Position numbers and translations under genes: made by a program. A stretch of 53,407 nucleotides of DNA from a virus, in the IMG/VR virus record IMGVR_UViG_3300036859_000475, positions 1-53,407 of that record; one strand, 5' to 3'. The notes below the pieces were generated by a model. It searched no databases and was not told the origin of the DNA. It saw only the letters and a list, made by a program, of their open reading frames with translations. Positions 34,055 through 35,390 of this stretch are shown piece by piece. Every line of letters starts with the position of its first letter. Position 1 is the first letter of the stretch.

Positions 34055-34440
34055 CCCCTGTGCACATCTGCCCTGTCTGCTATCAAGAACCGGCTGTAGG
34101 CCACCATCCGCTATTCCATCGGATAGAAGAACGACTATCCGCTCTTGAACGGGAACTTGTTGCCCCAGAGTCGAAAGACCGGGTGCGCTGCAAGCTCTGT
34201 GGGTGGATCGGCTGGGCACATGCCGACGACCAATGCGAACGCTGCGACGTGGCCGGGGAGTTTGAGGCAGCGATGGATTCGTCTGTTGCCAAGGGACCAC
34301 CGAAAGCGCCAGATATGGTTGGCGGCTTCGAGGACACTCGGTCGGCGGGTACGGGCTCCGGTGATGGCGCCCCCGGAACGTCGAGAACCCCGCAGGGTCC
34401 CTTGTCAACGGACTCCGCGTCAACGGACGCGGAGGGATGA
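34051..34440 (+). CDS. Zinc-finger protein with disordered tail
   Basis: 129 residues: CPVC near the start, CKLCGW and CERC in the middle (zinc pairs), then a Gly/Ser/Thr-rich disordered tail of about 50 residues. ATGA overlaps on both sides; the next gene is the DNA methyltransferase. Confidence 0.65.
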   Translation: MTPVHICPVCYQEPAVGHHPLFHRIEERLSALERELVAPESKDRVRCKLCGWIGWAHADDQCERCDVAGEFEAAMDSSVAKGPPKAPDMVGGFEDTRSAGTGSGDGAPGTSRTPQGPLSTDSASTDAEG

Positions 34441-35390
34441 AGGTTGGCTCCCTCTTTTCGGGAATCGGAGGGCTCGACCTTGGGCTTGAGCGGGCCGGCA
34501 TGGAGATCGTCTGGCAGTGCGAGAGCGACCCCTATTGCCGCGCCGTCCTCCGAAAGCACTGGCCCCACATCGAACTCTTTGGCGACGTGCGGACCCTCTA
34601 CGCTCCCCGAAGGGTTGATCTCATCTGCGGCGGTTTCCCCTGCCAGCCAGTCAGCCAAGCTGGACGTCGACGAGCCCAGGCTGACGATCGTTGGCTCTGG
34701 CCCGAGATGGCCCGTGTTCTTCGGGACCTACGACCCCGCTATGTCCTTGTGGAAAATGTCCCAGGGCTCCTTGCTCGAGGAATGGGAGACGTCCTCGGAG
34801 ACCTGGCCTCCCTCGGGTTCGATGCAGAGTGGGAGAGCCTTCCGGTTGCCGCGTTTGGTGCCCCGCACTTACGAGACCGGGTGTTCATCTTCGGCTATCG
34901 GCCGCCCGAGACTGTTGGACGGCCCGGAAAGCAACGGCGGGTTTTGGCCGACACCGAGAGCGGTGGACAACGGCCAGATCAAGACAACCCGGACAGATCC
35001 TCGGAACAAAACCTCGAGTCCGTCTCTCAGCGAGGCAGCGCAGATGTGGCCTACTCCCAAGGCGAGCGCAGCGAACTACGGCCGACCGCGGGAGAGCGAC
35101 TGGGGGGATCTCCAAGCGGCCGTGTTGTGGCGCACACCCCAAGCGCGGGACGGGGACCAGAGGGGGCCGAGCTCGCCCGAGCGCAGAAAGGAGCAGGGAC
35201 ATTCGGTGTCCCTGCACGATCAGGTTGGTGGGCAACTGAACCCGACGTGGGTCGAGTGGCTCATGGGATTCCCTCTCGGGTGGACCGTCTTAGAGCCCTC
35301 GGAAACGCCGTCGTCCCGCAAGTCGCGGAATGGATAGGAAGACGAATCATGGCAGCGGACGAACGCTCATCGGAGCGGGAGGGGCGATGA
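34437..35390 (+). CDS. DNA cytosine-C5 methyltransferase
   Basis: 317 residues. Motif I SLFSGIGGLDLG, catalytic motif IV GGFPCQ (C69), motif VI ENV (E106), motif VIII RDRVF (R146, R148) and motif X RLRALGNAVVPQVAEWIGR are all present. It transfers a methyl group from S-adenosylmethionine to C5 of cytosine. The target-recognition region (about 165-250) is low-complexity. It probably protects phage DNA from restriction or prepares it for further modification. A second frame inside this gene also looks coding (34444-35337). Confidence 0.93.
   Translation: MKVGSLFSGIGGLDLGLERAGMEIVWQCESDPYCRAVLRKHWPHIELFGDVRTLYAPRRVDLICGGFPCQPVSQAGRRRAQADDRWLWPEMARVLRDLRPRYVLVENVPGLLARGMGDVLGDLASLGFDAEWESLPVAAFGAPHLRDRVFIFGYRPPETVGRPGKQRRVLADTESGGQRPDQDNPDRSSEQNLESVSQRGSADVAYSQGERSELRPTAGERLGGSPSGRVVAHTPSAGRGPEGAELARAQKGAGTFGVPARSGWWATEPDVGRVAHGIPSRVDRLRALGNAVVPQVAEWIGRRIMAADERSSEREGR
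34444..35337 (+). CDS. Overprinted WPTP-type protein nested in methyltransferase gene
   Basis: An open frame of up to 297 codons on the same strand, offset by one base from the methyltransferase. It is not random shadow: it shows YDPAMSLWKMSQGSLLEEW, TWPPSGSMQSGRAFRLP, WPTPRAV, WPTPKAS, WRTPQARDGD and LNPTWVEWLMGFPLGWT. This pattern I know from phage proteins coded next to cytosine methyltransferases. The start is uncertain (TTG 34444 is the first candidate). Function unknown, perhaps linked to the methyltransferase. Confidence 0.6.
   Translation: MAPSFRESEGSTLGLSGPAWRSSGSARATPIAAPSSESTGPTSNSLATCGPSTLPEGLISSAAVSPASQSAKLDVDEPRLTIVGSGPRWPVFFGTYDPAMSLWKMSQGSLLEEWETSSETWPPSGSMQSGRAFRLPRLVPRTYETGCSSSAIGRPRLLDGPESNGGFWPTPRAVDNGQIKTTRTDPRNKTSSPSLSEAAQMWPTPKASAANYGRPRESDWGDLQAAVLWRTPQARDGDQRGPSSPERRKEQGHSVSLHDQVGGQLNPTWVEWLMGFPLGWTVLEPSETPSSRKSRNG

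Follow-up and report, generated by a model that had tools for sequence, protein, structure and literature searches.

The question raised by this locus is why one stretch of viral DNA remains open in two overlapping frames, and what the second of them encodes. The window, i.e., the whole 53,407-nucleotide stretch that was analysed (IMG/VR record IMGVR_UViG_3300036859_000475, positions 1 to 53,407), contains a long ORF in frame 1, here called alpha, and a shorter one within it in frame 2 (+1), here called beta (Table 1). The first-pass annotation assigned frame 34437–35390 to a C5-cytosine methyltransferase (MTase), and this was borne out, including the positions of the quoted motifs. Motifs I, IV (PCQ), VI (ENV) and VIII (RDR) are present, and the frame matched PF00145 (E = 4e-43, residues 1–160 only). 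That annotation also proposed a separate search of each translation, which gave phrog_363 for frame 1 (E = 2e-81) and phrog_1008 for frame 2 (E = 8e-30, aa 56–285). Motif IX was absent from the window's frame 1, while the +1 frame at the corresponding place reads LNPTWVEWLMGFP. The MTase order of motif VIII, target recognition domain (TRD), motif IX and motif X is complete only when both frames are taken together, with VIII and X in frame 1 and TRD and IX in frame 2.

Table 1. Features of the window locus, with positions in the window; subunit and TRD labels are those of the proposed enzyme.
Feature	Positions	Strand	Remarks
Putative alpha subunit ORF, C5-cytosine MTase, 317 aa	34437..35390	+	motifs I–VIII and X, no motif IX
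Putative beta subunit ORF, +1 frame, stop to stop	34441..35337	+	phrog_1008 match
Motif IV GGFPCQ (catalytic Cys), alpha frame	34629..34646	+	sequence; conserved in alignment A7
Motif VI ENV, alpha frame	34752..34760	+	sequence; alignment A7
Motif VIII RDRVF, alpha frame	34872..34886	+	constrained frame switches shortly downstream
Proposed beta TRD module 1, WPTPRAVDNGQIK...LSEAAQM	34945..35046	+	identity to L087; alpha is an unconstrained linker here
Proposed beta TRD module 2, WPTPKASAANYGRPR...LQAAVL	35047..35127	+	identity to L094
Proposed beta TRD module 3, WRTPQARDGDQRG...LHDQVGGQ	35128..35235	+	module parsing
Motif IX, beta frame, LNPTWVEWLMGFPLGWT	35236..35286	+	codon-position differences; in-frame in one-chain L370
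Motif X GNAVVPQ, alpha frame again	35301..35321	+	sequence
Small upstream ORF	34051..34440	+	ends in a TGA that shares bases with the alpha ATG (as ATGA); bounds the beta ORF on its 5' side

In frame 2, motif IX is preceded by 1–6 modules, mostly of about 27–40 aa, with the form WPTPxAxD...LxxAV; three of them stand in tandem between motifs VIII and IX in the window's beta. These WPTP modules sit at the TRD position, and the following LNPTWVEWLMGFPLGWT sits at, and resembles, motif IX. The beta family gave no hit in Pfam or PADLOC, its profile found no match in the PDB, and an AlphaFold model of the beta TRD–IX part alone was of low confidence (pLDDT 61, pTM 0.23). Position, selection and homology, not structure, hence support the TRD role of beta.

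The homology was provided by a bacterial locus from an Acidimicrobiia MAG (L370:2501-3538), which carries motifs I–VIII, two WPTP modules, motif IX and motif X in a single frame. This layout was recognised by reading the translations. The alpha profile matched both flanks of the protein (E = 2e-63) and the beta profile its middle (E = 6e-15), and the same chain matches phrog_363 and phrog_1008 alike. In its structure model the catalytic domain is HhaI-like, and the TRD has a pLDDT below 50. With both parts in line, L370 provides direct evidence that alpha and beta belong to one enzyme and that beta supplies what alpha is missing. The L370 sequence also occurs in IMG/VR (L379). Among the relatives, four layouts were distinguished: one chain (L370); TRD in +1 with IX and X in frame 1 (the actinobacterial L371 and L377); TRD and IX in +1 with X in frame 1 (the window and most loci); and TRD, IX and X all in +1 with frame 1 ending after VIII (L040, L060, L332 and L361). 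A further way of moving part of the recognition domain to +1 may exist in phage C5 MTases of the Streptococcus phage MM1 type, where it would concern only the piece just after VIII.

The constrained segments of the window locus are collinear with the one-chain enzyme, with two switches of frame. This could be read as a single composite polypeptide made by programmed frameshifting, which would move to +1 after motif VIII and return to frame 1 before motif X. Such a mechanism needs no openness in the frames left unused, so that the distribution of stops bears on it. For the window itself, codon shuffling that kept the frame-1 protein left frame 2 open from VIII to X with P = 0.52; openness is not significant in such GC-rich DNA, and the case therefore rests on the relatives. 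Frame 2 served as the query in two scans of viral contigs, which yielded a first collection of 160 loci. In 156 of them the frame-2 ORF overlaps an MTase ORF in +1, or in 157 when L047 is counted, in which beta overlaps in +1 an MTase that reads PCK for PCQ; the frame-2 ORF of L104 is truncated by the contig end. At two loci (L070:2473-3276 and L015:2416-3396), alpha and beta are fused in the same frame and motif X is missing in that frame; these may be damaged or rearranged copies, or may reflect errors in the sequence. A second collection was picked from viral contigs and bacterial genomes by frame 1 only, with frame 2 being no criterion. Here, between VIII and X, the +1 frame was open in 98 of 124 loci and the +2 frame in 1 of 124, with 55 stops in +1 versus 292 expected and 944 in +2 versus 985 expected. 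No PRE-type pattern of a canonical one-frame motif IX was found in these alpha-selected loci. When both collections were combined, 222 of the 242 classified loci had motif IX in +1 together with a frame-1 motif X. Of the PTP tetrapeptides counted from VIII to IX, 656 were in +1, as against 29 in frame 1 and 46 in +2.

From the TRD to motif X, alpha contains no stop, where 534 would be expected in 184 loci if only beta mattered, and beta contains one stop from IV to VIII, where 249 would be expected if only alpha mattered. Third-frame stops were about as frequent as expected in both stretches. That the unconstrained stretches are never interrupted indicates two polypeptides translated right through; judged from this stop avoidance, both chains appear to be translated end to end, and the unconstrained stretches appear to serve as linkers or leaders. 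A natural control was available in L040, L060 and L332, where motif X lies in the beta frame. There, the alpha frame stops directly after VIII and holds 15, 19 and 9 stops, respectively, beyond it. Frame 1 thus fills with stops once X has moved, which double frameshifting does not predict. Furthermore, M.EcoHK31I, an MTase of this kind, was demonstrated as two polypeptides. We hence consider frameshifting very improbable, and two overlapping genes for one enzyme remain the preferred reading.

The first-pass annotation took frame 2 for another recognisable phage protein, i.e., an independent overprinted product of unrelated function, and suspected the origin of a family that elsewhere stands alone. 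The first part holds insofar as frame 2 belongs to a recurring family with a PHROGs cluster of its own, phrog_1008. A separate role is contradicted by the constrained part of frame 2, the WPTP modules and LNPTWVEWLMGFPLGWT, which corresponds precisely to what frame 1 lacks, the TRD and motif IX, and which is found in line in L370. None of the 160 frame-2 ORFs retrieved stands alone, and an unrelated protein is likewise very improbable. Beta as the missing part of the MTase also explains overlapping phage genes that are both labelled "DNA methyltransferase". Paenibacillus phage Bloom is an example, in which a phrog_1008 "DNA methyltransferase" gene overlaps another. As a side observation, phrog_1008 and phrog_16143 both bear this label and match inner +1-frame ORFs, not the catalytic chain.

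Selection was examined on 45 independent close pairs within locally reliable alignment blocks. These estimates supersede an earlier codon-position count, which was noisy in the TRD through misalignment. The P0001 reading, which fused alpha to beta by one four-letter word, and the mixed alpha/beta alignments A3 and A8 were dropped, as MAFFT had aligned beta rows with the alpha part. Per-frame dN/dS (omega) is a naive estimator for overlapping frames, and its bias does not explain the reversal between segments: the alpha/beta values were 0.14/1.36 before motif IV, 0.18/1.00 from IV to VIII, 1.43/0.11 in the TRD, 0.84/0.20 in IX–X and 0.12/1.38 downstream of X. For loci chosen without a beta criterion, the TRD gave 0.69 [0.41–0.94] for alpha and 0.19 [0.13–0.32] for beta. 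In the relatives, which number several hundred, amino-acid constraint thus acts in one frame only for nearly every segment, and the constrained frame alternates along the locus. The earlier statement that both frames look constrained has to be corrected accordingly, and its AAVSPAS and TPSSRKS blocks, which lie opposite motifs IV and X, fall where frame 2 is unconstrained (omega ~1.0–1.4). A check it had suggested, namely constraint at MTase third positions, turned out strongly positive: of 61 Val codons facing a beta Trp, 59 are GTG, versus a background of 22.6%. The same alternation was visible in the window itself. Its module 1 shares 74% identity with L087 in beta and 35% in alpha over the same DNA, module 2 shares 74% and 27% with L094, respectively, and its motif IX shows 8, 8 and 32 differences from those of 9 relatives at the first, second and third beta codon positions, respectively.

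An untranslated frame 2 that shadows a conserved gene in GC-rich DNA, its apparent conservation stemming from frame 1, would suit the unremarkable openness in the window and an omega of ~1 in IV–VIII; this reading retains a negligible probability given that frame-2 omega is 0.11–0.29 across TRD and IX with frame 1 unconstrained or nearly so, that frame-2 stops in IV–VIII are nearly absent (see above), and that low-GC relatives keep frame 2 open while their third frame is full of stops. The beta relatives are in fact conserved from low-GC (35–45%) to GC-rich loci. Both frames are hence real, as the first-pass annotation had proposed, and, by their avoidance of stops, probably both translated, and the beta relatives lie consistently in +1 of an MTase.

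The frame assignment, the alternating selection, the obligate openness and the homology to the one-chain enzyme, all established on the sequences, argue with high confidence for one heteromeric C5-cytosine MTase of the M.EcoHK31I kind, encoded as two fully overlapping genes. Alpha would fold the AdoMet-binding and catalytic domain from motifs I–VIII, and continue through about 95 unconstrained residues as a linker to motif X. Beta, whose start would coincide with the alpha start or lie close to it, would begin with an unconstrained leader that is the shadow of motifs I–VIII, and then provide a TRD of three WPTP modules together with motif IX. Each module probably contributes to sequence recognition. 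From these features we infer that both chains are made and that they associate into an active enzyme, which would methylate its target sites in the phage DNA and thereby protect it from host restriction. Such protection is the likely role. MTases of mobile elements usually lack a partner nuclease and can shield phage DNA from host restriction (PMC8936443), and no nuclease gene was recognised adjoining the MTase in the window. Elsewhere in the window, 42348–43322 matched an anti-restriction protein family (phrog_7245, E = 9e-24), and 48353–49432 matched a beta-glucosyl-HMC-alpha-glucosyltransferase family (phrog_842, E = 3e-43), for which base hypermodification is possible.

The start of beta varied among the relatives. 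Many have a beta ORF that is open from the alpha start onwards, frequently with an ATG located four bases into alpha; in others, the beta start is found 10–24 codons upstream of motif IV after a Shine-Dalgarno-like site. The window has two candidates, TTG 34444 and TTG 34480, and GGAGG precedes either codon by 8 nt. Its beta start may be either of these TTG codons; the ORF is listed as 297 aa when read from TTG 34444. The small upstream ORF had no PHROG match.

The modules are apparently shuffled among phages, as 123 locus pairs share a module at differing ordinal positions. The window segment 34945–35235 and the relatives L087, L094 and L176 are examples of this apparent shuffling. Module 2 is common to L094, where it occupies another module position, and no close relative was found for module 3. 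These observations are consistent with a beta built as a series of WPTP modules that serve recognition and can be exchanged, each adding a target sequence, with parts of the recognition domain having been moved to +1 in several ways, such that specificity could be swapped with the catalytic frame left untouched. We offer this tentatively, as a reading whose chances fall a little short of even. Should every WPTP module act as a unit of specificity, the family would constitute a natural library of exchangeable cytosine-methylation specificities within naturally split enzymes; the split M.EcoHK31I format has already been applied to targeted methylation (PMC3439449). The locus further presents one enzyme as a patchwork of two frames between which selection hops, and corrects the idea that both frames of a long overlap have to be under constraint.

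Split overlapping MTases are already known as a kind, of which the window is a further case. In M.EcoHK31I, the small ORF is reportedly nested in the large one in a different frame (Lee et al. 1995), an arrangement said to be known since the 1990s, which the present survey finds to be widespread and modular in phages. Compared by description, the window resembles this enzyme (YGGCCR) in having motifs I–VIII and X on the large ORF, which lacks IX, and IX on a smaller polypeptide encoded inside it in another frame. M.EcoHK31I needs both polypeptides, the large one with I–VIII, X and a predicted TRD, and the small one with motif IX only (PMC3404938). In contrast, selection in the present family places the TRD in the small subunit, with a TRD omega of 0.11–0.19 in beta versus 0.69–1.43 in alpha. 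The TRD in the large subunit of M.EcoHK31I is a literature prediction and not a defining trait. Another two-subunit C5 MTase, M.AquI (CYCGRG), is split after VIII and has a small subunit with IX and X (PMC3404938). L040, L060, L332 and L361 share this layout, whereas the window keeps X in the large ORF and is not of the M.AquI type.

The multispecific MTases of the Bacillus phages SPR, phi3T and H2 are one-chain enzymes. They contain several tandem TRDs (PMC8936443), which recall the 1–6 WPTP modules found here, for each of which a TRD role is inferred; unlike them, the present family is split across two frames. Overlapping C5-MTase ORFs have also been noted in the Streptococcus phages MM1 and 5093 and in Tn5252 (PMC5601072), and in MM1 and 5093 the phage C5 MTase gene likewise encloses the second ORF completely, in a different frame. 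We rejected these as the same split: their MTase is a canonical one-chain enzyme with IX and X in frame 1, and the inner ORF spans IV–VIII and ends just after, which makes it a different class. Loci of this type (L387:7480-8637, L386:6067-7026 and L388-L428) contain a canonical frame-1 MTase and an inner +1 ORF that ends with SLSDILEEEVDERYFLS. The +1 frame was open in 39 of 39 versus 1.7 expected, omega in the C-terminal piece of the inner ORF was 0.27 for beta and 0.89 for alpha, and alpha dS in IV–VIII was 0.15, down from 0.52. In phage ShiLan, an HNH endonuclease is encoded out of frame within a phage methylase as a mobile insertion (PMC11855218). This is similar in having an overlapping ORF within a phage methylase gene, but the inner frame of the present family is not an insertion and codes for parts of the enzyme itself that are otherwise missing. 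Relative to these systems in the open literature, the TRD in the small subunit, the frame-hopping map of selection, the shuffled modules, the breadth of the family and the series of split types may be new.
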